Assembly: GCF_900163815.1 (NCBI RefSeq)
Contig: NZ_FUKO01000033.1
Location: 62,001-126,000, forward strand
Reading direction: 5' to 3'
Length of the DNA stretch: 64,000 nt
Source: Microbacterium esteraromaticum
GTDB taxonomy: Bacteria > Actinomycetota > Actinomycetes > Actinomycetales > Microbacteriaceae
Position 1 is the stretch's first letter. Each line of letters opens with the position of its first letter. This document shows positions 19,899-44,672 of the stretch, in pieces. The notes under the pieces are model-generated. The model saw only the letters and a list, made by a program, of their open reading frames with translations. It ran no database searches and was not told where the DNA came from. The translations under genes were made by a program, and so were the position numbers.

Positions 19899-19909
19899 CC
19901 GGGCGTGCT
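19899..19909 (+). promoter_or_regulatory. Class 2 motif CCGGGCGTGCT (leaderless spacing)
   Basis: CCGGG followed by CGTGCT, then exactly 6 bases to the ATG of a tagged protein. Confidence 0.6.
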
Positions 19910-19915
19910 CTGAGC

Positions 19916-20980
19916 ATGGTTTCGATCGATGCGAACGGCGACATCCACGACGGCCGCGGCCAGTACGCAGGACACATCCGCACCGGGCCGGCGGGATCAC
20001 TGTCCGATGCTGACCGCGCCGATATCCAACTCCTGCTGGATCGGCGTCGACAGCTGCAGGACCGTGGGTATCTGCCGGCGGTCGCCACATGGTCGACGTC
20101 GACGAGCGCACGATCGGCGGACGGCATCGAGGAGTGGCACGAGCAGGCGAGGCGGAACGCCAGCGTCGGCTCCGGGTATCCGCTTATGCCAGATGACTAC
20201 CTGCCGGGGCAGCAGGGGAAGGCTCGCGGGCGGTCGGTCGGAGGGAACCTTCGGGTCCCGCGGCGACTGTACGAAGGCGGCGGGCTCGCACTCCGCATGT
20301 ACGACGTGAACACGGTCCGGCAGTTCGCCGCCGAGAACGCCGGCACCTTCGAGATGCCCATCGAGCTCGAGGGGCAGGCGGGGAACTCCATCATCGGGCA
20401 CGTGCGCGTGACGAAGAACGGTCCTGGCCAGTGGTCTGTCGAGCCTCTGGGCTTCCCGGCGAACGTGTCTTGGCGGGCATCGGAAGCTGTCACCAGCATC
20501 CTCGAGTCCCGGCGTCCCGCCCATGCGCTACGGGACGCCGGAGATCTCCTCGAGCGACACAAGCTGCGTCTGGCGAAGGCAGGTGCAGCGATGGAGACCG
20601 ACCGGTTGAACTCCTCGTGGGTCCGCGGTGTCGGATACAACCGGGCGTCCGAGGAGATGATCATCCGGCTCGGCGATCGCACCTACGGATACCGGGTCGA
20701 TGAGTCGATCTACCGTGCCGTCCGCGAGTCGTCGTCGGTCGGCGGGCAGTACAACGCGCTCGTCAAGCACAATGCGGCGCGCGTGCCCGTCGAGCAATGC
20801 GGTGACTGTCGACGGTGGTTCAACGCCGACCGCGGGCACCAGTGCCGACGGCACACGGCACCCACCGCGGTGGTGACCCCGTACGACGCTCTGGTCCGCG
20901 CGCACGTGGCTGTTGAAGCGGGCGAAGCATCCTTCGACGAGCTGCTCTCCGCACGCGAGCTCTACAACACTCGGTCATGA
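19916..20980 (+). CDS. Tagged hypothetical protein with C-terminal zinc-knuckle-like segment
   Basis: The product is 354 residues. Residues 1-29 are a clear copy of the shared tag (DANGDIHDGRGQYAGHIRTG). The middle 230 residues match no known family, although EEMIIRLGDRTYGYRV and SVGGQYNALVK resemble KTSC-like small domains that bind nucleic acid or protein. Near the C terminus CGDCRRWFNADRGHQCRRH could bind zinc. The start follows the class 2 motif with the fixed 6-base spacing. It lies 22 bases before the exonuclease gene and heads the large plus-strand region. Confidence 0.65.
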   Translation: MVSIDANGDIHDGRGQYAGHIRTGPAGSLSDADRADIQLLLDRRRQLQDRGYLPAVATWSTSTSARSADGIEEWHEQARRNASVGSGYPLMPDDYLPGQQGKARGRSVGGNLRVPRRLYEGGGLALRMYDVNTVRQFAAENAGTFEMPIELEGQAGNSIIGHVRVTKNGPGQWSVEPLGFPANVSWRASEAVTSILESRRPAHALRDAGDLLERHKLRLAKAGAAMETDRLNSSWVRGVGYNRASEEMIIRLGDRTYGYRVDESIYRAVRESSSVGGQYNALVKHNAARVPVEQCGDCRRWFNADRGHQCRRHTAPTAVVTPYDALVRAHVAVEAGEASFDELLSARELYNTRS

Positions 20981-20985
20981 CGGCA

Positions 20986-20996
20986 CCGGGTATTTG
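20986..20996 (+). promoter_or_regulatory. CCGGGTATTTG promoter (variant, leaderless)
   Basis: One-base variant of the main motif, with 6 bases between hexamer and the ATG of the exonuclease gene. Confidence 0.65.
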
Positions 20997-21002
20997 AGGC
21001 CC

Positions 21003-21590
21003 ATGACTGATCACAAGCATGGGCCCGCAGCGTACGTCTGGACGGACTACGAGACCACCGGGCTCGACGAGAGGCATGATCACTTGCTGGAGGTGGCGTT
21101 CATCGTCACCGACAAGGAGCTCCGCGAGATCGACCGCCGTTCATCCCTGATCCAGGTCACGGATGACACCTGGGAGCTGTTGAACGCGAACGAGTACGTC
21201 AAGCGCATGCACCACGAGAGCGGGCTCTGGTCCGAACTCGCTCTCAAGGGGTGGGACGCGCCCAGACTCGAATCGGTCGACCTGGGCACCAGCGAATGGC
21301 TGTCCGAACTGGCCAGTCCCGGCGAGACGCTGAGGATGGCGGGCGGTGGAGTGGCGAACTTCGACTGGCCGTGGACGAAGATCCACCTCCCGCAGGTTGC
21401 CGCGCTGCTGCACTACCGGCCGCTGGACATCTCGATCGTCGCCCAGGCCTTCAAGGACGCCACGGGCTCGACCGCGATGAGCAAGGTCCACAACGGCGGG
21501 GCGAAGGCGCACCGAGCACTCGCGGATATCGAGGAGGACCTCGGAATCGCCCGCACTGCGTGGGATCTGCTTCGCAGGATCCCCGCGTGA
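21003..21590 (+). CDS. DnaQ/oligoribonuclease-like 3'-5' exonuclease (DEDDh)
   Basis: The product is 195 residues. Exo I is VWTDYETTGLDERHDHLLEV (Asp and Glu, about residues 13-32), the middle Asp lies in VANFDWPW, and Exo III is HRALADIEEDLGIAR (His and Asp, about residues 169-183). All four acidic residues and the histidine of the DEDDh type are visible. It may proofread for the element's DnaE or degrade short RNA, since oligoribonuclease belongs to the same superfamily. The start at 21003 is set by the leaderless promoter spacing. Downstream, ssb follows after 132 bases. Confidence 0.8.
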   Translation: MTDHKHGPAAYVWTDYETTGLDERHDHLLEVAFIVTDKELREIDRRSSLIQVTDDTWELLNANEYVKRMHHESGLWSELALKGWDAPRLESVDLGTSEWLSELASPGETLRMAGGGVANFDWPWTKIHLPQVAALLHYRPLDISIVAQAFKDATGSTAMSKVHNGGAKAHRALADIEEDLGIARTAWDLLRRIPA

Positions 21591-21606
21591 AGCATTCCCG
21601 GCCAGA

Positions 21607-21617
21607 CCGGGTATGTG
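21607..21617 (+). promoter_or_regulatory. CCGGGTATGTG promoter (exact, long leader)
   Basis: Exact copy. The ssb ATG lies about 105 bases downstream, so the predicted leader is near 100 bases, the longest of the family here. This leaves room for leader control. Confidence 0.7.
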
Positions 21618-21722
21618 CATCGCAGAGGCCGCATCCCCGCGGCGTCTGACCCTCCACAAACCGAGTGGATGGGTGGTCGCAAGAAGAAAGGGAACCCACG
21701 GGTTTCCAGAACGGAACTAGAG

Positions 21723-22298
21723 ATGAACGAGACGAACGTGGCGGTCGTGGGGAATGTGACGGCGGATCCGGAGCTGCGCTACACGCAGAACGGCATCCCC
21801 GTGGCGAACTTCACCGTCGCCTCGACGGAGAGGGTGTTCGACCGCGAGGCGAACGCGATGAAGGACGGCGACACGATCTTCTACCGCATCGCCGCATGGC
21901 GCGAGCTCGGTGAGCACGTCGCCAACTCGCTGGCCAAGGGGCAGCAGGTCCTCGTGTACGGCAAGCTCAAGCACAAGCCGTACCAGACGCGGGAAGGTCA
22001 GACGGCGTACTCGCTGGAGATCGAGCCGACGGCGATCGGTCCCAGCCTGCAGTTCGGCACCACGGTCTTCACCAAAAGCGCGCCGAGGGGGCAGCAGGCA
22101 ACTCAGCCGCCTGCTGGTGTGGCTCAGCCGGTCCAGGCGGCGGCACCTGCGCTGACGGCTCCCGTCGTGGCGACGCAGCCTCAGGCCGTTCCGCAGCAGC
22201 AGTACGTTCCCCAGGCGGCTCCGGTGCCCCAGGGCGCCCCGGTCCCGCAGGCGGTACCCGCCGGCGGTGTCGAGGCGATGTCGGACGATCTGTTCTGA
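21723..22298 (+). CDS. ssb: Single-stranded DNA-binding protein
   Basis: The product is 191 residues. The OB fold is clear: VAVVGNVTADPELRYTQNG, VANFTVASTERVFDR, FYRIAAWRELGEHVANSLAKGQ and VLVYGKLKHKPYQTREG (about residues 5-95). A Gln/Pro/Ala-rich linker leads to an acidic tip ending SDDLF, which corresponds to the partner-binding C-terminal tip of bacterial SSBs although it ends Leu-Phe and not Pro-Phe. It binds ssDNA during replication and conjugative entry. GGAACTAG precedes the ATG only weakly. It is bounded downstream by a strong terminator. Confidence 0.92.
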   Translation: MNETNVAVVGNVTADPELRYTQNGIPVANFTVASTERVFDREANAMKDGDTIFYRIAAWRELGEHVANSLAKGQQVLVYGKLKHKPYQTREGQTAYSLEIEPTAIGPSLQFGTTVFTKSAPRGQQATQPPAGVAQPVQAAAPALTAPVVATQPQAVPQQQYVPQAAPVPQGAPVPQAVPAGGVEAMSDDLF

Positions 22299-22304
22299 CC
22301 GGTT

Positions 22305-22344
22305 GACGAAGCCCCGGAACCCCCGACGGTTCCGGGGCTTCGTC
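22305..22344 (+). terminator. Strong terminator hairpin after ssb
   Basis: A perfect 17-bp stem (GACGAAGCCCCGGAACC and its complement) with a 6-base loop starts 6 bases after the ssb stop. The lack of a T-run is normal for high-GC hosts. Confidence 0.75.
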
Positions 22345-22370
22345 GCGTCAAGTCCACATACACGGGCGCG

Positions 22371-22381
22371 CCGGGCGTGTG
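22371..22381 (+). promoter_or_regulatory. Class 2 motif CCGGGCGTGTG (leaderless spacing)
   Basis: CCGGG, then CGTGTG, then 6 bases to the ATG of a tagged protein, just downstream of the ssb terminator. Confidence 0.65.
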
Positions 22382-22387
22382 CGGTAC

Positions 22388-22765
22388 ATGACGACCGATC
22401 GACACGGAAACCAGCATCGCGGCGAGGGACCCGGGGGTGGGCAGTTCGCTGGACGAGAGCGCGCGGAAGCCGAAGGCACGCTGGGGGTAGCCGCAGAGCA
22501 TGTGCGTCGCCGGCCCCTGAGCATCGCTATTCTCGAGCGTCGTGACCCAGAGGGTGGGTTCGATGTCGCACTCGACGCGCCGACGGGACGCATCTACCTG
22601 CACAACGGGCAGAAGCACCGTGAGAACGGTCCCGCCTACGAGGGCATCGATGGTGAGCAGCAGTGGTGGCAGGACGGCGTTCTGCACCGCGAAGACGGAC
22701 CCGCCGTGATCCACGATGACGGCGTCGAGGAGACGTGGGTACGCGGAGAGCCCATCGCGATCTGA
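22388..22765 (+). CDS. Tagged protein with HREDGPA-type repeats
   Basis: The product is 125 residues. The first 32 residues are a looser copy of the tag (GGGQFAGRERAEAEGTL). The rest holds two MORN-like repeats, YLHNGQKHRENGPAYE and WWQDGVLHREDGPAVI, each with the HRE(N/D)GPA core seen in many phage and plasmid proteins. Those repeats form beta hairpins and their role is not settled. The start follows a class 2 motif with fixed spacing. The start of the next operon overlaps no coding sequence; 27 bases separate the genes. Confidence 0.7.
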   Translation: MTTDRHGNQHRGEGPGGGQFAGRERAEAEGTLGVAAEHVRRRPLSIAILERRDPEGGFDVALDAPTGRIYLHNGQKHRENGPAYEGIDGEQQWWQDGVLHREDGPAVIHDDGVEETWVRGEPIAI

Positions 22766-22772
22766 CGCGGGG

Positions 22773-22789
22773 TGTTCGCAGGGCTGGAC
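22773..22789 (+). promoter_or_regulatory. Transfer-box 17-mer TGTTCGCAGGGCTGGAC (copy 1)
   Basis: Exact 17-mer ending 3 bases before the ATG of the anchored HNH gene. The other copies are at 46934-46950 and 60329-60345 (exact) and 51233-51249 (one change). Confidence 0.7.
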
Positions 22790-22792
22790 AGT

Positions 22793-23197
22793 ATGTTGCC
22801 GGTCGACCCGTGGATCCTCGCCGCCGTCGCGGCGCTTGCGGTCCTGATCGTCGTTCTCCTCGTCAGTCGTCGACGACCTGGAGCACGTGACGAACGGCGC
22901 ATGTACACCTCGATGGAGCGCGCACAGGGGTTCGGGCGGGCATCCCAACAGTGTGAGTACGACCGCTGGTTGCTCTGGCGGTGCACCCGAACGGCGCAGC
23001 ATGGCGACCACTTCTATCCCTGGTCCAGAGGAGGCGCGACGAGCATGCGCAACTTCGTCGCGGCCTGTGGGCGTTGCAACACCAGCAAGGGCGCGAGGGT
23101 TCCGACAGCGACGCAACGGCTCAGAATCGAGCGCAGACGGCGGAAGTACTTCCCGGCGGGCACACCCGTCGGGGTCGGTGAGTGGGTGAGGGCATGA
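22793..23197 (+). CDS. Membrane-anchored HNH nuclease
   Basis: The product is 134 residues. One N-terminal transmembrane segment (about residues 7-24, ILAAVAALAVLIVVLLV) is followed by a basic stretch and an HNH domain with HGDHFYPWSRGG and CGRCNTSKG, giving the His/Asn/Cys pattern. The CRACG-like cysteines that usually complete the zinc site are replaced by a C-x15-C spacing upstream. Stop and next start overlap as ATGA. With a single short anchor and a long positive tail after it, a cytoplasmic nuclease domain is more likely than an external one. It opens the operon for the cell-wall hydrolase and lipoprotein, so a transfer-linked role is likely. Confidence 0.7.
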   Translation: MLPVDPWILAAVAALAVLIVVLLVSRRRPGARDERRMYTSMERAQGFGRASQQCEYDRWLLWRCTRTAQHGDHFYPWSRGGATSMRNFVAACGRCNTSKGARVPTATQRLRIERRRRKYFPAGTPVGVGEWVRA

Positions 23198-26359: not shown

Positions 26360-26370
26360 CCGGGTATGTG
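26360..26370 (+). promoter_or_regulatory. CCGGGTATGTG promoter (exact, leaderless)
   Basis: 6 bases separate the hexamer from the ATG at 26377. Confidence 0.75.
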
Positions 26371-26376
26371 ACCGGC

Positions 26377-26786: not shown

Positions 26787-26797
26787 CCGGGTATGTG
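26787..26797 (+). promoter_or_regulatory. CCGGGTATGTG promoter (exact, leaderless)
   Basis: 6 bases to the ATG at 26804. It lies between two short-spaced genes, so each has its own promoter copy. Confidence 0.75.
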
Positions 26798-26803
26798 GCG
26801 AGC

Positions 26804-28966: not shown

Positions 28967-28977
28967 CCGGGTATGTG
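28967..28977 (+). promoter_or_regulatory. CCGGGTATGTG promoter (exact, leaderless)
   Basis: 6 bases to the ATG of the SNF2-type helicase gene. Confidence 0.75.
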
Positions 28978-28983
28978 CAGGTC

Positions 28984-31093: not shown

Positions 31094-31726
31094 TTACTCC
31101 TCGGTGAGCACCGGGATGCCGTTCTCCTCGGCCCACGCGGTGTACGCACGGCGGTAGGCCCGCTGCACCGCTTCATGGTGAGCCCAGTACTCGGGCTCGC
31201 TCCAGCTCTCGTCGTTCTCGTAAGCGTCCTTCTCGTACTTGAGGTAAACCTCCCACGCTCGCTCCCCGAGCTCGTCACGCTGCGCGTCCGTGAGCTGCGC
31301 TTCGCGTTCGGCGCCGATGACCGTCTCGACATCGAAACCGTCGTCGACCGACTGCCGGAACGCTCCACGGTCACGAACGACGCCGGCAAGCCCCAGCCGC
31401 GCACGGGCAGCATCGACGGCGAGGTCGAAGTCGCGCTCTGTGTAGTCCCTGTAATCGACAACCTGCGTCGGATAGTTGTCGAGTTCGCCACGTTCCCGCA
31501 ACGCCTCCTGCATCCGATAGGCACCCTGCACCGCGATCTCGAACGCCGCGCGCAGCTGACTCGTATCCAGTGAACGGATCTCATCCCCGCCCATGCCATG
31601 TGCCTCGCCGGCGATCTCGGTCGGAAGCGGGCGATGCCCCAGGGCCTCCTCTGGTTCGCTGCGGACATGGCCATCGAAGCGACCACTGGAATCGTGGATG
31701 TTGCCGTGAGCGTCTCTGGTTCCCAT
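31094..31726 (-). CDS. Tagged hypothetical protein
   Basis: The product is 210 residues. The first 31 residues carry one of the best copies of the tag (DAHGNIHDSSGRFDGHVRSE, then PEEALG). The rest is highly charged and helical, with YTERDFDLAVDAARARLGLAGV and an acidic Tyr/Trp-rich C terminus. No family is recognised. It is transcribed divergently from the ArdC-like gene, both from class 2 motifs in a 68-base intergenic region. It converges on the SNF2-type gene. Confidence 0.65.
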   Translation of the reverse strand: MGTRDAHGNIHDSSGRFDGHVRSEPEEALGHRPLPTEIAGEAHGMGGDEIRSLDTSQLRAAFEIAVQGAYRMQEALRERGELDNYPTQVVDYRDYTERDFDLAVDAARARLGLAGVVRDRGAFRQSVDDGFDVETVIGAEREAQLTDAQRDELGERAWEVYLKYEKDAYENDESWSEPEYWAHHEAVQRAYRRAYTAWAEENGIPVLTEE

Positions 31727-31732
31727 GTTCGG

Positions 31733-31743
31733 TGAACGCCCGG
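31733..31743 (-). promoter_or_regulatory. Class 2 motif CCGGGCGTTCA (leaderless spacing)
   Basis: Minus strand; 6 bases to the ATG at 31726 of a tagged gene. Confidence 0.6.
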
Positions 31744-31777
31744 CTCGGTGCCAGCGCTGGCCACCGCTGCGCTCAGG

Positions 31778-31788
31778 CCGGGCGTGTA
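31778..31788 (+). promoter_or_regulatory. Class 2 motif CCGGGCGTGTA (leaderless spacing)
   Basis: Plus strand; 6 bases to the ATG of the ArdC-like gene. It forms a divergent pair with 31733-31743. Confidence 0.65.
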
Positions 31789-31794
31789 CCCACC

Positions 31795-32775
31795 ATGGCG
31801 ACGATCGACGAGCAGGGGAACATCCACGACAGGGCCGGCCGGTTCGACGGACATGTCCGCACCGAGCCCGAGGGCGCGCTCGGGACACTTGAGCGTCCCA
31901 CGTTCACGGGATATGCCAGCGTCCAGGAGAAGGTCGAAGCGATGCGGGCTGAACTCGCGGACGCCGTCGACCGACTCAGTGACGACGAGGAGTGGAACAG
32001 GTTCCTCGACACCATGGGGAAGTTCCACCGCTACAGCTTCCAGAACCAGGTGCTCATCATGATCCAGCGTCCTGGAGCCACCCGCGTCGCGGGATTCCAG
32101 ACCTGGAAGAGCCTCGGTCGAAGTGTCCGCAAGGGCGAGAAAGGCATCGCGATCCTCGCCCCGAAGGTGGTGAACGCCAAGGACGACGATGGCAACGTGG
32201 ATCTCGATTCGAACGGCAAGACACGCAAGAAGGTCGTCGGGTTCACATCCGCGACGGTCTTCGACATCTCGCAGACCGAGGGTGAGCCGCTCCCGGAGGG
32301 GTATCACTCGTTCAGCGAAGAGCCCCCTCCCGGATTCACCGATGATCTCGAATCGGCAATCGCTGCACAGGGCTACACGATCTCGTACGAGGAACTGAGC
32401 GGGGGCAAGCAGGGGTACACGACGATGAGTGCGCCTCACCGTGTCGTGATCGACTCGACTCTCGCGCCAGGGGAGCGCGCGAGGACCCTCGCGCACGAGC
32501 TCGGACACATCATGTGCGGTCACACAGGGGAGGAAGAGACTCGCAACTACTCGACCGATCACGGCGGCAAACGGGGTGAGATGGAAGTGGAGGCGGAGAG
32601 CTTCGCCTACGTTCTGTGCCGCATGAACGGGATGCAGGCGCACCAGCGCACAGCCAGCGAGTACGTCGCCGGGTGGCAGGCCTTCGAGCCGGACGCGATC
32701 CGCTCCGTCGGGGAGAGGCTCTCCAAGGCGTTCAAGCGGACCATGGAGCTTCCCTGGCAGAACGCGCGGGAGTGA
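31795..32775 (+). CDS. Tagged ArdC-like antirestriction protein / zinc metallopeptidase
   Basis: The product is 326 residues. The tag (DEQGNIHDRAGRFDGHVRTE) fills residues 1-30. An ArdC-type ssDNA-binding N-terminal domain follows (KFHRYSFQNQVLIMIQRPGA, then FQTWKSLGRSVRKGEKGIAI). The zinc peptidase domain has ARTLAHELGHIMCGH (HExxH, about residue 233) and EVEAESFAYVLC (third ligand, about residue 266). ArdC of IncW plasmids protects incoming plasmid DNA from restriction in the recipient, and related relatives are carried into the recipient. This is why the tag on this protein suggests a delivery signal. The start fits the class 2 spacing. Confidence 0.82.
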   Translation: MATIDEQGNIHDRAGRFDGHVRTEPEGALGTLERPTFTGYASVQEKVEAMRAELADAVDRLSDDEEWNRFLDTMGKFHRYSFQNQVLIMIQRPGATRVAGFQTWKSLGRSVRKGEKGIAILAPKVVNAKDDDGNVDLDSNGKTRKKVVGFTSATVFDISQTEGEPLPEGYHSFSEEPPPGFTDDLESAIAAQGYTISYEELSGGKQGYTTMSAPHRVVIDSTLAPGERARTLAHELGHIMCGHTGEEETRNYSTDHGGKRGEMEVEAESFAYVLCRMNGMQAHQRTASEYVAGWQAFEPDAIRSVGERLSKAFKRTMELPWQNARE

Positions 32776-33672: not shown

Positions 33673-33678
33673 GACCCC

Positions 33679-33689
33679 CACATACCCGG
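33679..33689 (-). promoter_or_regulatory. CCGGGTATGTG promoter (exact, leaderless)
   Basis: Minus strand, 6 bases to the RusA-like ATG. It lies 5 bases beyond the end of the small gene upstream. Confidence 0.75.
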
Positions 33690-33945: not shown

Positions 33946-34046
33946 CGCACCTCCCGGGTGATCTCCCTACAGGGTACGGCGGCGCCTTGTCGTTCTTGTC
34001 GAGACGAACCGATGTCGCGGAGATCAAGGCCGGTGCGGGGCGATCG

Positions 34047-34057
34047 CCGGGCGTGCA
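34047..34057 (+). promoter_or_regulatory. Class 2 motif CCGGGCGTGCA (leaderless spacing to GTG)
   Basis: 6 bases to GTG at 34064. The ATG at 34077, which has its own GGAGGA, is an alternative start in the same frame. Confidence 0.55.
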
Positions 34058-34063
34058 GGAGGT

Positions 34064-34555
34064 GTGCAGCACAGATCCACGACCGGAGGAGTCGGCATGA
34101 TCATCCGCCAGCAACGGGGCGCGCCGGGTGGCCACGGCGGTGAGTTCGCACCGCACCACCGTAGCGACCCTCTCGGCAGCCTCGGAGAGCCGACGCTGGA
34201 CACCATTGCGCGGGCGTCGGCTTCAGGTGTGCAGGTCGTGTACGAACGAGACCCGCGCACGGGACGAATCCGCATCGTCGTGCTCGCCCTTGACGAAGAG
34301 CTCAGCGCACAGGACGGAGCCGAGGCGTGGGTTGAAGAGGGGCATGTCCTGACACGGACGCCGGCCACCGTCGATCTGGAACGAATCGCCCCGGTCATCG
34401 CCAGCCAAGCGGCTGAGCTCGGAGCTGCTGCTGACCGTAACGAGGCGATCGCGTGGTTCCTCGCCGAACGGGAGGACCACAAAGACCCCTTCCTCACGCG
34501 AGGTGAGCGAGGCCGTGGCGGCGAGATGCCGGCACACGCGATCCCGCTCGGATGA
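34064..34555 (+). CDS. Tagged hypothetical protein
   Basis: The product is 163 residues from the GTG at 34064, which fits the class 2 motif spacing. It would be about 159 residues from the ATG at 34077, preceded by GGAGGA. The tag variant ends GGHGGEFAPHHRSDPLGSLG. The rest is mixed alpha/beta (GVQVVYERDPRTGRIRIVVL, then ERIAPVIASQAAELGAAADR). No family is recognised. It is the first of four consecutive tagged genes. Confidence 0.6.
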   Translation: MQHRSTTGGVGMIIRQQRGAPGGHGGEFAPHHRSDPLGSLGEPTLDTIARASASGVQVVYERDPRTGRIRIVVLALDEELSAQDGAEAWVEEGHVLTRTPATVDLERIAPVIASQAAELGAAADRNEAIAWFLAEREDHKDPFLTRGERGRGGEMPAHAIPLG

Positions 34556-34563
34556 CTCAGATA

Positions 34564-34574
34564 CCAGGGATGTG
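34564..34574 (+). promoter_or_regulatory. Variant CCAGGGATGTG (leaderless spacing)
   Basis: Intermediate between the two classes, with CCAGG and GATGTG. 6 bases to the ATG of a tagged gene. Confidence 0.5.
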
Positions 34575-34580
34575 AACACC

Positions 34581-35318
34581 ATGACGATGATCGATGGGAA
34601 CGGTGCGATCCACGACACTCGGGGGCGGTTCTCCGGGCATGTCCGATCGCAGCCGGACGAAGACGGCCTGGCCGCGACGGCGCCCAGGAGAACGCTCAGC
34701 CGCACGACGAATGGTCTCGTCGACACCTGGCTCAGCGATCTGGAGATCCCGCCGGGGGAGGAACCCACTCGCACGCAGATGCGGGAGTTTCTCTCCGAGG
34801 GGCGAGCAGTCGAAGTCGAGCGCTTCGGGGCCTGGTCGGGAACATACGAGGGGACCGAGTGGGCGTACGACTCGGAAGAGGCAGTGGACGCCGCACGAGA
34901 AGTCTCTGAGGCCCTCGCGGATGGGCAACCAGGAAAGCTCACCGCAGCGGACTACCTCTGGGACGGCGATCGCGTCGACCTCTCCCGGATCATCACTGAG
35001 GAGCAGTACGACGAAGAGTTCGCGGAATGGGCTCGCACCAACTATGCGACCGTCACACGGTCCTGCAGCGCGGGCGACGGAATGACCGAGATCACTTTCA
35101 AGGATCGCGCGAAGACAGTGCTCGTCGCAGCCGGCACCGTGCTCCCTGTCGTCACCGTCAAGTTCCGTGGGCAGGAACGCACAGAACGGTCCGTGCTCAT
35201 CGAACTCCGCAAGGACTACGGCATCCGCACACGACCGGCCGACGGACTCGACGCAGCGGTCGTCGCTGCAGGGATCTCACCTGACCATCCGGACTTCCCC
35301 AAGAAGGGACTCTCATGA
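34581..35318 (+). CDS. Tagged hypothetical protein
   Basis: The product is 245 residues. The tag is clear (DGNGAIHDTRGRFSGHVRSQ). The middle part is acidic with a repeated-Trp/Tyr pattern, including FGAWSGTYEGTEWAYDSEEA. The C-terminal 90 residues are beta-rich (TEITFKDRAKTVLVAAGTVL, then VVTVKFRGQERTERSVLIEL). Such a charged, acidic middle part could mimic DNA, as some antirestriction proteins do, but this is a guess. The gene overlaps the next by ATGA. Confidence 0.6.
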   Translation: MTMIDGNGAIHDTRGRFSGHVRSQPDEDGLAATAPRRTLSRTTNGLVDTWLSDLEIPPGEEPTRTQMREFLSEGRAVEVERFGAWSGTYEGTEWAYDSEEAVDAAREVSEALADGQPGKLTAADYLWDGDRVDLSRIITEEQYDEEFAEWARTNYATVTRSCSAGDGMTEITFKDRAKTVLVAAGTVLPVVTVKFRGQERTERSVLIELRKDYGIRTRPADGLDAAVVAAGISPDHPDFPKKGLS

Positions 35319-35674
35319 CCATCACAACGCGCGTTCCGCGCGGAGTCTCGTCGCACGGCGGGGAGTTCACCGCGCATCACCGGACCGAAGCCGACGGGAC
35401 CCTGGCACCCGCACCGCCCACGCCGCTCGAGACATTCCGCGACGCGTCGCCGAAGAAGCAGGCGAGCATGATGGTCGATGCGCTCGACCGATTCGATGCG
35501 CTGACCCCGCTGCAGAAGATGGAGGAATGGCGGCTCGCGGGAGACAGTAAGCTCGCCGTCGTCTTCACAGCACACTCACCGGAGGACTGCGCGCGATGTG
35601 GTGGCTACTGGTTCCGCGAGCGGGATGATGAGCAGCCGTACTGCCCACAGTGCGCTGGCATGATCGAGGGGTGA
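35315..35674 (+). CDS. Tagged protein with C-terminal zinc ribbon
   Basis: The product is 119 residues. It starts with a looser tag copy (SSHGGEFTAHHRTEADGTLA), then a helical segment (RDASPKKQASMMVDALDRFD), and ends in a four-cysteine ribbon (CARCGGYWFRE, CPQCAG). AGAAGGG precedes the ATG, and the start overlaps the previous gene by ATGA. No function is known. Confidence 0.65.
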   Translation: MTITTRVPRGVSSHGGEFTAHHRTEADGTLAPAPPTPLETFRDASPKKQASMMVDALDRFDALTPLQKMEEWRLAGDSKLAVVFTAHSPEDCARCGGYWFRERDDEQPYCPQCAGMIEG

Positions 35675-35681
35675 GCGGACG

Positions 35682-36113
35682 ATGAGCACCGACGCCAACG
35701 GGAACATCCACGACGTCGTCGGCAAGTTCGCCGGCCATGACCGCAGCGCCCCAGAAGCGGGGCTGGTGACAACCGCAGAATCACCTGCCGGGGTGCGGTA
35801 TCGACAGGCGGCAGAGGGGTTCTGGGAGCAGCAGCTCCCGGCGATGCTCGAAGCCAGGAGCCGCGCTCAAGACGCGCAGCTCGACCTCGCCCGCGCTGAG
35901 GCCGTGATGCTGAACCCGAAGGCGGTGCAGATGCGCTTCGCCTGGCGTGACGACGAGCGCCTCGGATTCCCCGATGAGATCTACGATGCCGAAGGCGAGC
36001 CCCTCGACATCACCCTGGACACTGAACTGGACCTGTTCGACGACTACGACGAGGCACGGTCGCGGTTCTTCCTTGACGACGAGGGGCGCTTCATCATCCC
36101 GATCGAACTGTGA
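35682..36113 (+). CDS. Tagged hypothetical protein
   Basis: The product is 143 residues. A clear tag (DANGNIHDVVGKFAGHDRSA) is followed by a helical section and a strongly acidic C terminus with DLFDDYDEARSRFFLDDEGR. No family is recognised. It is the last of four tagged genes in a row, 7 bases after the previous stop. Its acidity again raises the possibility of nucleic acid mimicry. Confidence 0.6.
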   Translation: MSTDANGNIHDVVGKFAGHDRSAPEAGLVTTAESPAGVRYRQAAEGFWEQQLPAMLEARSRAQDAQLDLARAEAVMLNPKAVQMRFAWRDDERLGFPDEIYDAEGEPLDITLDTELDLFDDYDEARSRFFLDDEGRFIIPIEL

Positions 36114-37110: not shown

Positions 37111-37116
37111 GCCCAC

Positions 37117-37127
37117 CACATACCCGG
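37117..37127 (-). promoter_or_regulatory. CCGGGTATGTG promoter (exact, leaderless)
   Basis: Minus strand, 6 bases to the ATG at 37110. It lies just downstream of the recombinase gene. Confidence 0.75.
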
Positions 37128-38612: not shown

Positions 38613-38618
38613 ACCGAC

Positions 38619-38629
38619 CACATACCCGG
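38619..38629 (-). promoter_or_regulatory. CCGGGTATGTG promoter (exact, leaderless)
   Basis: Minus strand, 6 bases to the ATG at 38612. Confidence 0.75.
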
Positions 38630-38959: not shown

Positions 38960-39103
38960 TCAGTGTGCGTCGAGGATGCTCGCGACCATCGCGAGGTTCC
39001 AAGAAGCGACGGCGGTCGTGATCGGGCCCCAGAACACCCACCGGACCGTCCGGCGAAGCCGGTAGTACCGTGCAGTCCCTGGAGATGGTGCCGTGATCTT
39101 CAT
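38960..39103 (-). CDS. Small membrane protein (47 aa)
   Basis: The product is 47 residues: a basic N terminus (YYRLRRTVRWVFWG) and one hydrophobic helix (ITTAVASWNLAMVASIL). An exact promoter motif with the leaderless spacing, and a coupled downstream gene with GGAGG, support this very short gene. Its function is unknown. Confidence 0.6.
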   Translation of the reverse strand: MKITAPSPGTARYYRLRRTVRWVFWGPITTAVASWNLAMVASILDAH

Positions 39104-39109
39104 GCTCAC

Positions 39110-39120
39110 CACATACCCGG
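39110..39120 (-). promoter_or_regulatory. CCGGGTATGTG promoter (exact, leaderless)
   Basis: Minus strand, 6 bases to the ATG at 39103; it begins 5 bases before the end of the WhiB-like gene's downstream side. Confidence 0.75.
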
Positions 39121-39124
39121 TGAG

Positions 39125-39577: not shown

Positions 39578-39579
39578 GA

Positions 39580-41790
39580 TCAGACTCCCCTCGAGACGAG
39601 CCACTCGACTGCAGAGTCGGTGGAAGTGAACCGATTGCCGAGCGCGCTGAAGGCGCCCATGTACAGCGACCGCGTGATCTCCGGGTAGGCGAGCTGCGTC
39701 TTCAGCAACCTCAGGTCCAGGCACGCGACCATGCCGGTGTCGGATTCGGAGCGGATCAACCGGCCGGCGGCCTGAGCAAGCAGGAGCGCGGCATCGGCGG
39801 CGTAGATGAGATGAGACGAGGAGAAGCGGTCCAACTGAAGTCGCTCCACCAGGTCGTCGACGCGGGCTTCGTCGGACGGGTTCTTCGGGCTACGCGGCAC
39901 CCGGTCGATGATCACGAGCGAGCATGTCTCGCCGGGGGCATCGACCCCGGTCATCAGGGACTTCGTTCCCACCAGGACGCTGCCGACATCGGCGCGCCAT
40001 TCTGCGGTCACGGTTCCCGTTGTCTTCGCGTCCCACTGGGTGTGCACACGGATGTCGCGGGGAAGGCGCGCGCGGAGGGCGTCGGCGTAGCGTCGACCGC
40101 TGGCGGAAGTGGCGGACAGGACCAGTGCACGACCCGCGTTCCCTCGAACGAGGTCGACGATCTGATCGGTGCACCATTCCGCATGCCTGCCGACGTCGAA
40201 CTGCGGCTTGCCGTACCGGCCCTCGCGGGTGACCTGGGAGAGATCCCGGCCGGTCAGGTGGGGGATGAACAGCGCGCTGCGCTCATATGCGCGAGCGAAG
40301 GGGGTCGGGTAGGCGGTTGCTTGGGCGTTGAGCCCGGCCTGCTGTGCGAATCCGGCGGGGATGGTGGCGCTCAGTGCGAAGACCGGCAGGCGCCGGGACT
40401 CTCCGTCTTCCTCCAGCACGGTCCAGAGGTTGTCCTGGAGGATCCAGCCGACGGAGACCGGCTTCACGCAGCCGACGAGCCACGCACGTCGGTTCTCGTT
40501 CGGCTCGGAGTGTTCGACCCACCGGGCCCACCCGCTTCGATGCCGTCCGATCTCCTTCACCAGGGCCGGCATCTGAGCGAGCCTGTCCGAAGCTGACGCG
40601 GCACGAATCTGCTTCGTGACGTCCCGGCTGTGCGTCATGGATTCGAGAGCGGCCATTCCGCGCTCGGCCCAGACCTTCACACGGATGTCCTGATCTGCGA
40701 GCGGAGCATCGTCTGGTCGTAGGCGTCGGATCTCATCCGGTTGATGCCTGTGCGGGGCGAACCGCCGTAGCTGATCGTCGATCTCGCCGGCGATCACCTC
40801 CGCTTCGTCCATCCACGATCGAAGAGTCGACGGGGAGCCCGCGGCCCGATACGCACGAGCGGCCGCCGTGAGCAGGATTCCGCCCGAGAGCTTTGCCTCG
40901 CCTTGGCTGCGTACCGCTGCCGGCAGCTCATGTGCTTCGTCGACGATCACGAGGTCGAACGATCCGAGGCGTTTGCCGCCGGTGACGATTCGAAGGCGCT
41001 TTGCCGCTTGGACAGCAAGCATCGAATGGTTCGTGATGACGATGTCAGCGCGGGATGCTCGGTCCTTGGCGAGCTCGAGCCGGCTCGTCACCCCGAAGCG
41101 GCTGCCGTCGTCCGCCTCGCTCGACGACGCCGAGACAGCACGCCAGCCATCCTCCGTGTGCGGCATCGGGCAGGTGTGGCGGTCACCTGGCTCCCGATCG
41201 GTGAGGTGTACGCGGAGTGCCCACCTCACCAGCTGAGCGAACTCGCCGGGATCGCCGACGTCACCGAGCTCTACGAGGTCCGCCCTGTTCGGGATCAGGG
41301 TGTCGAGTCCGCTGGCGAGACGGACGAGGTCGTGATCGTCGGTTGCGAGAAGAACCTGGGCAGTCGCGATCGCCTTCGCGGGATCCGCGTAGTTGTTCGC
41401 ACCGCGGAGAAACGCCACACGCACGGTCGCTTCGGGATGCGTCTCGGCGAGAGCGACATGCATGGTCGGCACGTCCTTGTCCTCCATCTGCCCCATCAAC
41501 GACAGGGAGTGCGTGGACAGCAGCGTCCGATGACCGGATCGCACAGCGGCCCGGAACGCGATCGAGAGGGTGATGAACGACTTGCCGGACCCGGTGGGAG
41601 CCAACGCGATGACATCGCGGTCGTGCTCGAGGGCTGAGATGGCATCCAGGTAGAGCGCTTGCTGGCCTTCGCGGGGCCGCGCGTGGGGGAGACCTGTCGC
41701 GCTTCGCACAGCCTCGATGAGCAGGTCGAGGTCCTCGCCCTCGTCCTGGGGAACCGGGGGAGCGTCCGTCGCGATAGCGGTATGTGCCAT
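39580..41790 (-). CDS. XPD/DinG-like superfamily 2 helicase
   Basis: The product is 736 residues. Motif I APTGSGKSFITLSI (about residues 64-77), ADIVITNHSMLAVQ, motif II DLVIVDEAHELP (about 278-289) and the C-terminal segments ALVLSATSASGRRYADALRAR and LLLAQAAGRLIRSESDTGMVACLD are typical of the DinG/XPD group. I do not see the four-cysteine Fe-S pattern clearly. The leaderless promoter spacing sets the start at 41790. It precedes the WhiB-like gene and probably unwinds R-loops or forks on the element, though this is inference. Confidence 0.82.
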   Translation of the reverse strand: MAHTAIATDAPPVPQDEGEDLDLLIEAVRSATGLPHARPREGQQALYLDAISALEHDRDVIALAPTGSGKSFITLSIAFRAAVRSGHRTLLSTHSLSLMGQMEDKDVPTMHVALAETHPEATVRVAFLRGANNYADPAKAIATAQVLLATDDHDLVRLASGLDTLIPNRADLVELGDVGDPGEFAQLVRWALRVHLTDREPGDRHTCPMPHTEDGWRAVSASSSEADDGSRFGVTSRLELAKDRASRADIVITNHSMLAVQAAKRLRIVTGGKRLGSFDLVIVDEAHELPAAVRSQGEAKLSGGILLTAAARAYRAAGSPSTLRSWMDEAEVIAGEIDDQLRRFAPHRHQPDEIRRLRPDDAPLADQDIRVKVWAERGMAALESMTHSRDVTKQIRAASASDRLAQMPALVKEIGRHRSGWARWVEHSEPNENRRAWLVGCVKPVSVGWILQDNLWTVLEEDGESRRLPVFALSATIPAGFAQQAGLNAQATAYPTPFARAYERSALFIPHLTGRDLSQVTREGRYGKPQFDVGRHAEWCTDQIVDLVRGNAGRALVLSATSASGRRYADALRARLPRDIRVHTQWDAKTTGTVTAEWRADVGSVLVGTKSLMTGVDAPGETCSLVIIDRVPRSPKNPSDEARVDDLVERLQLDRFSSSHLIYAADAALLLAQAAGRLIRSESDTGMVACLDLRLLKTQLAYPEITRSLYMGAFSALGNRFTSTDSAVEWLVSRGV

Positions 41791-41796
41791 GCAGTG

Positions 41797-41807
41797 CACA
41801 TACCCGG
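41797..41807 (-). promoter_or_regulatory. CCGGGTATGTG promoter (exact, leaderless)
   Basis: Minus strand, 6 bases to the ATG of the helicase gene. It lies 9 bases before the end of the tagged gene. Confidence 0.75.
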
Positions 41808-41815
41808 TGATGGAT

Positions 41816-42253
41816 TCAGTCAGCTTGCCGGAGGGCGCGGACGGCGACGGAACGGTCCATGCCGTCCATCTCGACGAAGTTCTCGGCGTCGGCCTCTTCT
41901 GGGGATCCGCGGAATGCACCGAGCACACTCATCGAATCCGCGCCGATCTCTTCGTCGTACTGATCGGAGAACTCCGCCGCGGCATACTCGGCAGCAGCGT
42001 CTGCTGACTCTGCCTCGACCAGACGCGTCTCGTGATCATCCCCCTGCACCACCCACGTCAGCTTTCCCCGATTCCCGTGAGCGGCCTGGAACGGGTCAAG
42101 CGCGCCAAGCGTTGGCGGAACGGGGACGAGCTCAGCATCCGGGTACTGGGCGAGGAGCTCCTCGGATAGAGAGCGTTCGGGATCGATCCTGATTCGTCCG
42201 TCGAACCGGCCTGTGCTGTCGTGACTGTTGCCCTGCTCATCGATTCGTCCCAT
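41816..42253 (-). CDS. Tagged hypothetical protein
   Basis: The product is 145 residues. The tag is a good copy (DEQGNSHDSTGRFDGRIRID, then PERSLSEELL). The remainder is acidic, with a short beta segment (KLTWVVQGDDHETRLVEAES) followed by alanine-rich helix. No family is recognised. The start follows a class 2 motif with 6-base spacing, divergent from the promoter of the 399-residue protein. Confidence 0.6.
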   Translation of the reverse strand: MGRIDEQGNSHDSTGRFDGRIRIDPERSLSEELLAQYPDAELVPVPPTLGALDPFQAAHGNRGKLTWVVQGDDHETRLVEAESADAAAEYAAAEFSDQYDEEIGADSMSVLGAFRGSPEEADAENFVEMDGMDRSVAVRALRQAD

Positions 42254-42259
42254 GACCTT

Positions 42260-42270
42260 CGTACGCCCGG
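42260..42270 (-). promoter_or_regulatory. Class 2 motif CCGGGCGTACG (leaderless spacing)
   Basis: Minus strand, 6 bases to the ATG of a tagged gene. It is divergent from 42290-42300, with 19 bases between them. Confidence 0.6.
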
Positions 42271-42289
42271 CGACGTGGCCCTCGTGGCA

Positions 42290-42300
42290 CCGGGTATGTG
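42290..42300 (+). promoter_or_regulatory. CCGGGTATGTG promoter (exact, leaderless)
   Basis: 6 bases to the ATG at 42307. Confidence 0.75.
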
Positions 42301-42306
42301 CCGGGC

Positions 42307-43506
42307 ATGGAGACGACCCGCGAGGCAACACAACGCAGGAAGACCGCAGCTGACGAGATCCGCGCGGCCGCATCCCGGGCAGCCTCGGACCCATCTGTCG
42401 AGCATGCGGAGCGGCTGCGCATCATGGGCGTACTGCTCGATCCGGACCTCGAAATCGTCTCCAGCGCCGTCCGCTCATACGGCACATTCACGCAGATCGA
42501 GCGGGACCGGGTCCAGGACTACGTTGTGCGATCTCTCGAACGGGTGATCCTCGGCACGGGCGGGCCTCGCGAGGTCGGGGAACGTCGACGTGTGGAACTC
42601 GCTTCAATCTCACGAGCGCCAATCGCGTGGGCATCCAAGTACGCCCGCTCCTGCGTCCCCGGTGGTGTCACGGAGATCAGGCGCGCGCGAGCGCGTAGCG
42701 CGGCGCCGGCGTCACCGTCGAACGGGTGGATGCCACCGATCCCCAGTGCCGAGGAGGCTTACCTCGAATCCTGTGAGAACGCGGTCATCACGGAGATCGC
42801 TGACCGTATCGAAGGGTGGGACCGCAAGAAGATGCTCCCTCACGAGATCGAGCAGGAGACCGCCGCCGAGTTGCTTCGGCTGCATGGCTTGCCGAAGCCA
42901 TTCACCGCGGATACACGAGCGCGGCGGAGGATCTCCTCCCTGCTCGATCGCGAGGATGCGCCTGGGATGCTCGCGCGTTCGCTGCTCCACATGCTCGCGA
43001 TCATCGAAGGCCGTGTAGTCCCTGCAGGCGAGGGCCCAGATCATGACCTCTTGGACCTCTGGGTCGATTACACCGTCGATGACGCAAGAGCTCTTCTCGA
43101 GGAAGGGCCCCTGGTGATCGCCGCGATCGTCCGAGGAACCGTCGTGATGCCCTCCCGGCCGAGCGAAGCCCAGCGCCGTGAGCTGCGGCGCGCCGCGAAG
43201 GGCCTATCGTCCGCGCGTGGGTGGTCCAGCCTGATGCAGCAGACGGAGGCCGCGTGGGTGGCGGAGCATTTCGCCTCCCGGAGTGCGCGCGACAACAGGA
43301 GCCCACTCAACGAGTCTCAGGCAGAACGCATCCGCGCCGCGGCGGCTGGGCACTGGGAAGAGTCGGCGATGGCTGTTCTCTCGTTCAAAGGACAGCCGCT
43401 GGGGCGGCACGTGCAGACGATCGCTGACGTCAGCGACTGGTTCTTCGGCGCCCTCGAGATGGTGCGCTCGGATGGGTCGGAGCTTCGGTTGAAGCAGGCA
43501 GCCTGA
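42307..43506 (+). CDS. Hypothetical protein, possibly nucleic acid binding
   Basis: The product is 399 residues and not recognised. It is helical and basic in places: EIRAAASRAASDPSVEHAER, VRSYGTFTQIERDRVQDYVV, APIAWASKYARSCVPGGVTE and TADTRARRRISSLLDRE. The overall order loosely recalls the sigma-like protein at 9114-10004 (helical N half, a W-A-x2-A segment, then an Arg-rich part), but the similarity is too weak to claim relation. It has its own exact promoter and is followed by a 247-base gap. Confidence 0.5.
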   Translation: METTREATQRRKTAADEIRAAASRAASDPSVEHAERLRIMGVLLDPDLEIVSSAVRSYGTFTQIERDRVQDYVVRSLERVILGTGGPREVGERRRVELASISRAPIAWASKYARSCVPGGVTEIRRARARSAAPASPSNGWMPPIPSAEEAYLESCENAVITEIADRIEGWDRKKMLPHEIEQETAAELLRLHGLPKPFTADTRARRRISSLLDREDAPGMLARSLLHMLAIIEGRVVPAGEGPDHDLLDLWVDYTVDDARALLEEGPLVIAAIVRGTVVMPSRPSEAQRRELRRAAKGLSSARGWSSLMQQTEAAWVAEHFASRSARDNRSPLNESQAERIRAAAAGHWEESAMAVLSFKGQPLGRHVQTIADVSDWFFGALEMVRSDGSELRLKQAA

Positions 43507-43753
43507 CGCGAACCAGACCGGCATCGGCACCGTTCCCTGAGTTAGTTCGCTGGTGAACGACAGGAAAGCGGTGGGTCGACGTTCGGCAGACGTTCGCCGG
43601 AGTGCATCGTCACCGCTCCAGCCGGCGTCTTCGCCGCGTGCTGGTGGAGACCGGCGAACATGAGCGAAGATGGTTAAGCCGAAGGCAGGGCGATGGCGGA
43701 CGACGGCGCGAGGAGATCACGACGGGCCGGCATAGACGTGGGCCCCTTCGGTA
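43507..43753. other. Non-coding gap with repeats between convergent genes
   Basis: Two direct repeats GACGTTCG (43578-43585 and 43589-43596) are framed by an inverted repeat AGCGGTG/CACCGCT (43567-43573 and 43611-43617). I recognise no gene. It could be a transcription end, an operator or a small RNA region. Confidence 0.4.
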
Positions 43754-44194
43754 TTACGCGGCGTCCGCGACAAACCACGTCACGGGGCCGACGCAGCTGA
43801 TCGATCGCAGGAACGAAGTCTCTGTCGAGGGGTCGAGCCAGACGATCGAATCGCCGACGGGCTGAGGACGATCGGTGAACGGCGTGTACCCGGTCGAGAT
43901 CAGGATCAGCGGTATGTCGGAGTCCCAGCGGTCGAAGGCAACGGCCTCTCGCACACGGTCGTGAAGGAGCACCGTGAGAGCGTCCTCGTCGAGGTCGTAG
44001 TGGTGGGCGACGTCGGCGAGGATCGTGGCCTGCACGGCGTTCGCGTGGTCGGCGAGGAAACGCGCACGGAGCACCAGCCGCTGGTCGTCGTCGGCATCCG
44101 CATGTCCGTCGATCACTCCATCGACGAGTTCCGACGCGGTCTGTGCCTCGGTAATGCTGGCGCTGGTGTTGTCCAGCAGGGCATGTCCGTCCAT
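43754..44194 (-). CDS. Hypothetical protein
   Basis: The product is 146 residues, acidic. It has alanine-rich helices and a C-terminal part with RWDSDIPLILISTGYTPFTD and IVWLDPSTETSFLRS, which reads as a small alpha/beta domain. No family is recognised. The start overlaps the previous stop by one base, so it is coupled to the gene at 44194-44655. Confidence 0.55.
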   Translation of the reverse strand: MDGHALLDNTSASITEAQTASELVDGVIDGHADADDDQRLVLRARFLADHANAVQATILADVAHHYDLDEDALTVLLHDRVREAVAFDRWDSDIPLILISTGYTPFTDRPQPVGDSIVWLDPSTETSFLRSISCVGPVTWFVADAA

Positions 44195-44655
44195 CACGCG
44201 GCCTCCAGCTCGAACTGCAGCATGCCGTCGCAGGGAGACAGGAGATCCATGCTCCCGACTGTGACCTGCAAGGAATCGACGCCGGCCTGATAGCCGAGGT
44301 GCGCGGTCACCCAGCGGGTCCACCACGCCGGGCGCAGCACGAAGTCGCTCATCACCACATCGTTCGTTCGGATCGAGCGGAGCGCCCCATCCAGGGCTTC
44401 CCTGCCATCGGGACGCTTGATGGCGACGAGCTCTTCACCGCGGACGGCCTTCGCGCCGAGCTGCACTCGTTCCCGTCTGCTCCACGCAACGATGTCGGCT
44501 GCGCCGACCATGCGAGGGACGTTGTCCGCGCGAATGGTGACGGCCCAGCCATCGAAGCGGTTCAGGGATCGAAGGAGCCGATCGAAGTTCGGTCGAAGGG
44601 CAGCGGCCCCCGGCCGTACATGCGGGAGGTCTGCGATTGCGAAGGTGTATGACAT
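44194..44655 (-). CDS. Hypothetical protein
   Basis: The product is 153 residues with no family match. It is mixed alpha/beta, with a WTRWVTAHLGYQAGV segment and ELEAA at the end. It starts after a class 2 motif with the 6-base spacing, yet it has no tag; it is the only class 2 gene without one. It is coupled to the downstream gene. Confidence 0.55.
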   Translation of the reverse strand: MSYTFAIADLPHVRPGAAALRPNFDRLLRSLNRFDGWAVTIRADNVPRMVGAADIVAWSRRERVQLGAKAVRGEELVAIKRPDGREALDGALRSIRTNDVVMSDFVLRPAWWTRWVTAHLGYQAGVDSLQVTVGSMDLLSPCDGMLQFELEAA

Positions 44656-44661
44656 GTGTGG

Positions 44662-44672
44662 GGTACGCCCGG
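44662..44672 (-). promoter_or_regulatory. Class 2 motif CCGGGCGTACC (leaderless spacing)
   Basis: Minus strand, 6 bases to the ATG at 44655. The downstream gene is not tagged. Confidence 0.5.

Follow-up and report, generated by a model that had tools for sequence, protein, structure and literature searches.

Two start-anchored promoter-like classes in a Microbacterium element of a megaplasmid family, one mostly before genes for N-terminally tagged proteins, and candidate element-encoded sigma-like readers

Alternative sigma factors encoded by phages and plasmids are known, and the promoters of extracytoplasmic function (ECF) sigma factors are bipartite with a CGT-type −10 element. For polyvalent proteins of conjugative elements, delivery together with DNA and an N-terminal ArdC-N "header" have been proposed, and ArdC-N and LPD29 domains are discussed in the cited part of that account (PMC5512222). 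The pED208 conjugation system translocates many plasmid proteins into recipients, according to the cited portions of PMC8406263 and PMC11288057. The 64-kb stretch studied here (hereafter the window) comprises positions 62001–126000 of C26, a 222,513-base contig within the 3.37-Mb genome of Microbacterium esteraromaticum. C26 carries two classes of promoter-like sites at a fixed distance from start codons, and class 2 mostly precedes genes whose products share a short N-terminal tag. We regard it as reasonably probable that both are leaderless promoter classes to which sigma-70-like factors encoded by the element steer host RNA polymerase, and that the tagged set is expressed from class 2.

The original prediction listed eight starts preceded by CCGGG and a hexamer beginning with CGT. 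Seven of them carry CCGGGCGT exactly, its first C lying 17 bases ahead of the start codon; the genes begin at 19916 (+), 22388 (+), 31726 (−), 31795 (+), 34064 (+, GTG), 42253 (−) and 44655 (−), the minus-strand positions having been placed 3 bases off. The eighth, 34564, had been taken for a variant and does not belong to the class: CCAGGGATGTG before start 34581 lacks both CGT and the upstream element and has A at −18; the site is degenerate and class-1-like, and the gene at 34581 is tagged. By itself CCGGGCGT is not rare, with 14 copies in the window against 6.9 expected (2 of 100 shuffles reach 14). At the fixed distance from ATG it occurs 10 times in the genome, nine of them on C26 (reversed control, 1 + 1), so that it is the fixed start distance, not the letters alone, that makes class 2 unusual. 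Copies anchored to ATG or GTG made up 11 of 29 on C26 versus 0 of 29 in 400 kb of chromosome; a plain CCGGG-N12-start scan was noisy.

The class also turned out to be longer than CCGGG-CGT. It is bipartite, CC[A/G]-N13-G-CCGGGCGT-N9-start, with an upstream CC[A/G] at −34 to −32 and a G at −18 that had previously gone unnoticed. In the stack of the 11 anchored C26 sites, one of which (14927, −) probably does not precede a gene, all have C at −34 and a purine, A or G, at −32, and 10 each have C at −33, G at −18 and C at −1. CC and G were both present at 10 of the 11 anchored sites, versus 3 of the 18 unanchored copies on C26 and 3 of the 29 on the chromosome. A bipartite scan over 13 positions, whose consensus was derived from these same C26 sites, returned 12 sites on C26 at 12 or more matching positions and none in the 400 kb of chromosome or on the reversed contig; at 11 positions it gave 14927 (−) on C26 and one site in the 400 kb of chromosome. 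Tagged genes lie behind 11 of these 12 sites, and six of the seven genes at the confirmed sites are tagged, where seven of eight had been claimed: 44655 (−), whose product begins MSYTF, is untagged, and 34581 is tagged and falls outside class 2. Two variant sites lie on C26 outside the window, both before genes that are tagged by eye. The one at 153572 (−) carries CCGTGCGT and was found through the tag before its promoter was inspected; the other, at 50780 (+), upstream of the gene for the sigma-like protein T3 described below, precedes a gene for a tagged 107-amino-acid protein, carries the variant CCGGGCGC and was found only by a relaxed scan.

Leaderless sigma-70-type promoters have their −10 element at this distance from the start codon. 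Operators or translation signals instead of promoters would also explain sites placed before genes, and the absence of a detectable class-1 −35 element in C26 is in keeping with them; even so, this is the explanation to which we give least credence. The class-2 core keeps a strict start distance (16 or 17 in plasmid W07) that leaves no space for a separate Shine-Dalgarno site, the C26 class-2 upstream element stands at promoter-like spacing, and the host shows a hexamer signal at the same position: in the 400 kb of chromosome no CCG-at-−17 signal was seen, and a TAnnnT-type hexamer, TAGCCT at −12, ranked second among 6-mers. Reading of class 2 by a host ECF sigma factor appears improbable as well. 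Several chromosomally encoded proteins do exceed the Sigma70_r2 cut-off, some of them also matching Sigma70_r4_2, and many ECF −10 elements typically contain a CGT core; against this stand the 0 of 29 start-anchored copies in the chromosome, the different codes of Microbacterium and Curtobacterium elements, and the CACACA core found elsewhere.

All 21 exact genome matches of class 1, CCGGGTATGTG-N6-ATG, lie on C26 (none in the reversed control), and class 1 there has A or G at −18. Among 299 genomes of the family, exact class-1 letters were matched in two, the source genome and one with a single match; relatives have other letters. As had been predicted, no class-1 start is tagged, neither among the 11 exact starts in the window (by eye) nor among 18 on the contig (tag profile). 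Among named relatives the closest is a Microbacterium maritypicum MF109 contig, which is collinear with C26, has a T3 that is 98% identical, and is mostly 92–98% alike over long aligned stretches (range 77–98%); it is not an independent case. In 15 orthologous class-1 pairs the core (−17 to −7) has 2 changes in 165 cells, with one change at −18, and positions −60 to −21 match in 9 to 14 of 15. The class-2 core seen at 19916 occurs in M. maritypicum too, and the class-2 upstream regions are so alike (5–7 of 7 pairs nearly everywhere) that their conservation is uninformative.

More distant relatives are plasmids of 375–608 kb from Curtobacterium (three: W01, NZ_CP126274; W02, NZ_CP126255; W03, CP018784), Pseudarthrobacter (two), Paenarthrobacter (one) and Arthrobacter (two), which include W04 (NC_011879) and W07 (NZ_CP099467). 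All eight carry T3, a second sigma-like protein, g12, and the nearest DnaE genes; the window itself encodes a DnaE-like polymerase (12628–16656, −; 1342 amino acids), about 42% identical to the DnaEs of the Curtobacterium megaplasmids. A megablast search with 24.9 kb of the window found no match among plasmids and phages, and these relatives were found through protein searches. In a motif-free scan of k-mers at fixed distance from ATG, the top signals in C26, W04, W02, W01 and W07 belonged to an element starting with CCG at −17, with the letters across the five being CCGGGTATGTG; CCG[C/T]ACACATG; CCGCGCATAGG and CCGC[A/G]CACATG; and CCGCACACATAGG.

The split between tagged and untagged genes recurred in these elements, with the same geometry and other letters, so that the earlier suggestion of a separate regulator withstood the check in homologous elements proposed with it. 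With a tag profile built only from lineages other than the tested one (seeded by the class-2 genes there), and with class rules for W01, W02, W04 and W07 set post hoc after inspection of the results, tags of at least 5 bits were found in 8/11 class-2 versus 0/18 class-1 genes of C26, 25/33 versus 3/71 in W04, 28/51 versus 1/65 in W02, 25/43 versus 0/52 in W01 and 8/15 versus 0/50 in W07. Summed over the five elements, this gives 94/153 versus 4/256 (at 10 bits, 64/153 versus 2/256), with per-element Fisher p values from 4e-5 to 4e-14; random other starts gave 4 to 16 per 1000 in each element at 5 bits. The counts vary with the definition of the tag: under the first pattern, the profile at 5 bits, the profile at 10 bits and a broad pattern written after looking, W02 class 2 scored 18, 28, 16 and 44 of 51 and its class 1 scored 3, 1, 0 and 1 of 65, and W04 class 1 scored 3, 3, 2 and 5 of 71; the broad pattern in W01 gave 29/43 versus 2/52. 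Most of the leftover W02 class-2 genes look tagged by eye.

How the two classes differ depends on the lineage. The original prediction placed the difference in the first two hexamer bases, CG instead of TA; the difference goes beyond this, since class 2 in C26 has a −35-like element of its own. In the Curtobacterium plasmids the classes differ in the −10. The Arthrobacter-clade plasmids depart from that description: in W04 and W07 the CCGCACACA core is common to both classes, which are told apart chiefly by the −35 region and by positions −18 and −8, with a CGG[T/G]GA-type element at −38 to −33 before untagged genes, and before tagged genes a weaker CTGnnC with G at −18, clear in W07 and weak in W04. 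The code follows the element, since Microbacterium and Curtobacterium elements, whose hosts belong to the same family, carry different letters.

The tag itself begins with the consensus MTxxxxRxxxGxPxGGQFAxxxHxExxxxL. In an alignment of 81 class-2 proteins (all W02 class-2 genes and the tag-pattern genes of W04 and W07; 85 were selected, and four crossing a fetch boundary were left out), M1 is invariant and mean column identity is 7%; near-invariance is otherwise confined to G15, F17, L29 and a later column made up mostly of gaps. In the predicted model of M. maritypicum T3, residues 1–38 have a predicted local distance difference test score (pLDDT) below 50. Of 72,556 plasmid records, five contained a W04-like tag peptide, in at least 120 places, and all five belong to the Arthrobacter clade of this plasmid family; none of 50,697 phage records contained it. 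Pfam searches of the 81 proteins (E 0.01) returned 17 families, none of them in more than two proteins; they include DUF7007, DUF2958, KTSC, GmrSD_N, LRV, LPD29, PolyA_pol and Sigma70_r2; the C26 tagged proteins gave ArdC-N and a weak KTSC. NCBIfam gave nothing useful for nine of ten tagged-set proteins and weak, unrelated matches for the remaining one, and PADLOC matched three families, each in at most two proteins.

Such little likeness past the N-terminus would be expected if a unit made of promoter and tag-coding sequence had been copied before unrelated genes, so that duplication would account for the association and separate regulation would not be required. We consider this cassette origin unlikely as the whole explanation. 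The spacer and bases −7 to −2 are poorly conserved among the C26 class-2 sites, tags are also found without the promoter, and a common trans-acting reader seems to be needed because many sites carry the same lineage-specific letters. The two ideas are not exclusive, as a cassette origin is compatible with separate regulation.

A different regulator or sigma factor, and perhaps a different timing, for the tagged set had been suggested originally, and the split across lineages, together with the presence of two sigma-like families in all 12 of the elements or genomes examined, lends support to the first part. The families were recognised from two C26 proteins with sub-threshold Sigma70_r2 matches, T3 (C26 51146, +; 336 amino acids, tagged, under a putative class-2 promoter) and the divergent g12 (window 9114–10004, −). 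T3 orthologues were found in C26, the eight plasmids and three further genomes, and g12 in all 12; for Arthrobacter terrae the co-occurrence is at the level of the genome. The g12 family profile hit FliA (E 5e-5) over regions 2–3, the second stretch at chance level only, and the C-terminus of g12 looks like a helix-turn-helix by eye. In T3, regions 2 and 3 were matched in order below threshold (Sigma70_r3 at 179–208, E 0.018), and its orthologues gave several sigma families in NCBIfam, with SigB/RpoD-type matches within 171–249. The T3 and g12 profiles matched each other with E 4e-4 at a probability of 35%. In fold searches, all 50 listed of 226 rows for g12 were RNA polymerase or sigma (best E 8.8e-3, weak), as were the first 22 of 36 rows for a T3 orthologue (best E 0.17, weak). 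When the full T3 profile was iterated it drew in tagged proteins at large, and the tag was therefore removed from the profile.

T3 looks tagged in all 12 cases, and a class-2 core precedes it in nine (C26, M. maritypicum, W01, W04, W05 at −16, W06, W07, W08 and A. terrae). At the likely g12 starts no CCG element was seen, and a Shine-Dalgarno-like sequence precedes g12 in C26 and W04; g12 may therefore be made first by the host system. W01, W02 and W03 have extra g12 paralogues, some matching the C-terminal part only. Among 396 genomes of the order, T3 relatives were found in nine including the source genome (E 1e-10, tag-containing profile); of the other eight, seven look tagged by eye and four have CCG at −17, G240 having neither, and G564, which has the same N-terminus as the Pseudactinotalea protein, seems to be that same genome, included above. 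T3 was not found in viral contigs. Relatives from other families of the order (G280, G325, G425, G512, G561 and G597; L188, L190-L194) look tagged, some with CCG at −17, which suggests that such elements extend beyond the studied families. In the Arthrobacter-clade plasmids (L029-L033) the gene directly after T3 encodes a conserved, mostly tagged protein of about 140 amino acids, conceivably an anti-sigma factor; in two Curtobacterium plasmids a different small gene follows T3.

A single element sigma might serve both classes, an activator or small differences at −35, −18 and −10 setting strength or timing. The common geometry, the common CCGCACACA core in W04 and W07, and a T3 C-terminal part without a clear region 4 all fit such an arrangement, which we nevertheless hold to be unlikely, because the classes differ in the −35 region (W04, W07) or in the −10 (C26, Curtobacterium) and two sigma-like families are kept in each of the 12 elements or genomes.

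Under the two-sigma reading that we prefer, the −10-like CCGGGCGT of the C26 lineage would position the transcription start at or near the start codon, CC[A/G] would act as a −35-like element at fixed spacing, and an element-encoded sigma-70-like factor would bring the host RNA polymerase core to class 2, with a second reader for class 1. T3 would be the first choice for class 2, with positive autoregulation through its own class-2 core. For class 1 the first choice would be g12, whose gene is apparently leadered and whose product the host could make first. The tagged proteins, a majority of them without recognised domains and the others including the ArdC-like protein, T3 and a few that carry DUF2958, KTSC, LPD29 or other domains, would then form one co-regulated set, plausibly for transfer or establishment. 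A further, doubtful step is that the tag is a delivery signal with which the tagged proteins, including the ArdC-like antirestriction protein and T3, enter the recipient along with the DNA. Carried-in T3 would in that case activate class 2 at once in a naive host, the class-2 set would then renew itself, and class 2 would be the promoter of a pre-loaded establishment kit.

Several observations weigh against the two-sigma reading. In neither C26 class 1 nor Curtobacterium class 2 could a −35 element be made out, and one class-2 site is altered within the core in M. maritypicum (104253, −; T to C). The exclusivity of the classes is imperfect: 44655 (−) is untagged behind a class-2 site, two W04 class-1 genes are tagged at 10 bits, and tagged open reading frames (ORFs) of at least 10 bits without a class-2 site at −17 number 5 in C26, 22 in W04, 11 in W02, 4 in W01 and 22 in W07. 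In W07 a class-2 core at −16 precedes 12 tagged genes and also 10 untagged ones; many other tagged ORFs without a −17 site have a Shine-Dalgarno-like sequence, as expected inside operons. T3 is preceded by CCGCATACATA in W02 and W03 and by CCGCACATCTA in Pseudactinotalea. The Pfam Sigma70_r2 scores of g12 (17.4 bits) and T3 (15.0 bits) are below the cut-off of 24, the best sigma for the T3 profile in the PDB (SigW, E 0.015) is closely followed by ATP synthase b chains (E 0.017), and the C-terminal part of T3 is not recognised as region 4. The structural match of T3 to SigL domain 2 (Z 7.6, 78 residues, root-mean-square deviation 2.8) lies in a Z range that may reflect a common helical arrangement only, and confidence in the g12 and T3 models was low to middling (pLDDT 55.6 and 64.8). 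A cassette origin, moreover, would yield the tag-promoter association too.

The putative class-2 promoters of the window and their genes are arranged as follows. GTCCG-N13-G-CCGGGCGTGCT-N6 (19880–19915, +) stands before ATG 19916 of a tagged 354-amino-acid protein (19916–20980, +; tag SIDANGDIHDGRGQYAGH, weak KTSC match below cut-off), and GTCCA-N13-G-CCGGGCGTGTG (22352–22387, +) before ATG 22388 of a tagged 125-amino-acid protein (22388–22765, +; GPGGGQFAGR). Two divergent sites with GGCCA follow: 31727–31762 (−) before ATG 31726 of a tagged 210-amino-acid protein (31094–31726, −; GRFDGH) and 31759–31794 (+) before ATG 31795 of the tagged ArdC-like protein (31795–32775, +), which has ArdC-N (E 5e-13) and a Peptidase_M78/IrrE domain; a single TGGCCA palindrome at 31758–31763 contains the −35 elements of both. 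A site with GGCCG (34028–34063, +) precedes GTG 34064 of a tagged 163-amino-acid protein (34064–34555, +; GGHGGEFAPHH). Downstream, ACCAGGGATGTG at 34563–34580 (+), the degenerate class-1-like site without a −35 element that had been proposed as a variant, precedes a tagged 245-amino-acid protein (34581–35318, +; GRFSGH), and two further tagged proteins lack a class-2 site (35315–35674, +, 119 amino acids, SSHGGEFTAHH; 35682–36113, +, 143 amino acids, GKFAGH). On the minus strand, TGCCA (42254–42289) precedes ATG 42253 of a tagged 145-amino-acid protein (41816–42253; GRFDGR) and AACCA (44656–44691) precedes ATG 44655 of the untagged 153-amino-acid protein (44194–44655). At 42254–42306 a class-2 (−) and a class-1 (+) promoter stand back to back with zero bases between them.

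Putative class-1 promoters, CCGGGTATGTG-N6, lie on the plus strand at 26360–26376 (before ATG 26377), 26787–26803 (ATG 26804), 28967–28983 (ATG 28984, SNF2-related helicase), 42290–42306 (ATG 42307) and 51855–51871 (ATG 51872, PD-(D/E)XK domain), and on the minus strand at 33673–33689 (ATG 33672, RusA domain), 37111–37127 (ATG 37110, 59 amino acids), 38613–38629 (ATG 38612), 39104–39120 (a 47-amino-acid ORF), 41791–41807 (ATG 41790, DEAD/Helicase_C_2 helicase) and 45171–45187 (ATG 45170). Exact CCGGGTATGTG copies at 5926, 21607, 53312 and 3243 (−) have no ORF start codon at +17 and may reflect leadered transcripts, misplaced starts or no role. A tagged AbiEii-like nucleotidyltransferase (NAGQFVGRHRTEPE; 3927–4604, −), without a class-2 site, overlaps the end of an upstream gene and lies beside a helix-turn-helix gene; together the two (3927–5173, −) are a possible toxin-antitoxin pair.

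If the two-sigma reading is true, this family of actinobacterial megaplasmids, most of whose genes are annotated as hypothetical in the records examined, has a transcription system to itself: its own promoter code, a pair of divergent sigma factors and one promoter class set aside for a tagged protein set. It would offer candidate orthogonal promoter/sigma pairs, allow hypothetical genes to be sorted by promoter class, and open a direct test of whether a mobile element sends a transcription factor and antirestriction proteins into a recipient. Element-encoded sigmas, leaderless promoters and co-transferred proteins are each of a known kind. What appears new is to find them together in a private promoter code, one class of which is kept mostly for N-terminally tagged proteins; no precedent for this was found in open-licence PubMed Central (PMC) literature, and searches there for this promoter code or for the tag also gave no match.

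C26 class 2 resembles ECF promoters in having a short −35-like element and a CGT core at promoter-like spacing, and differs from them in that its −35 is CC[A/G], not GGAAC (11 C26 sites), and the core is CACACA in relatives; class 2 was accordingly rejected as an ECF promoter for want of a GGAAC-like −35. As with phage and plasmid alternative sigmas, host RNA polymerase would be redirected to element promoters by factors that the mobile element itself encodes; the difference is that here two divergent families, not annotated as sigma in the records examined, occur together in 12 of 12 cases, and one factor, T3, bears the tag of its own putative regulon. Actinobacterial leaderless sigma-70-type promoters, for example in mycobacteria (cited portions of PMC3898074 and PMC4633059), likewise place a −10-like hexamer some 6 bases ahead of the start codon, with no Shine-Dalgarno sequence in between; the letters here are element-specific (CCGGGTATGTG, CCGGGCGT, CCGCACACA, CCGCGCATAGG), and the hexamer is preceded by a CCG-based core. 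The translocated pED208 proteins provide a precedent for plasmid proteins reaching recipients, although the cited portion of PMC8406263 describes no common N-terminal tag or dedicated promoter class. With the polyvalent proteins (cited part of PMC5512222) the tagged set shares ArdC-N and LPD29 domains. Polyvalent proteins combine several disparate domains; the ArdC-like protein of the window has two, and the 17 Pfam families over the 81 proteins are known as totals only, so the tagged set is not classed as polyvalent here. The common part of the tagged set is instead a short tag, predicted to be disordered in T3, on proteins mostly of 100–500 amino acids.

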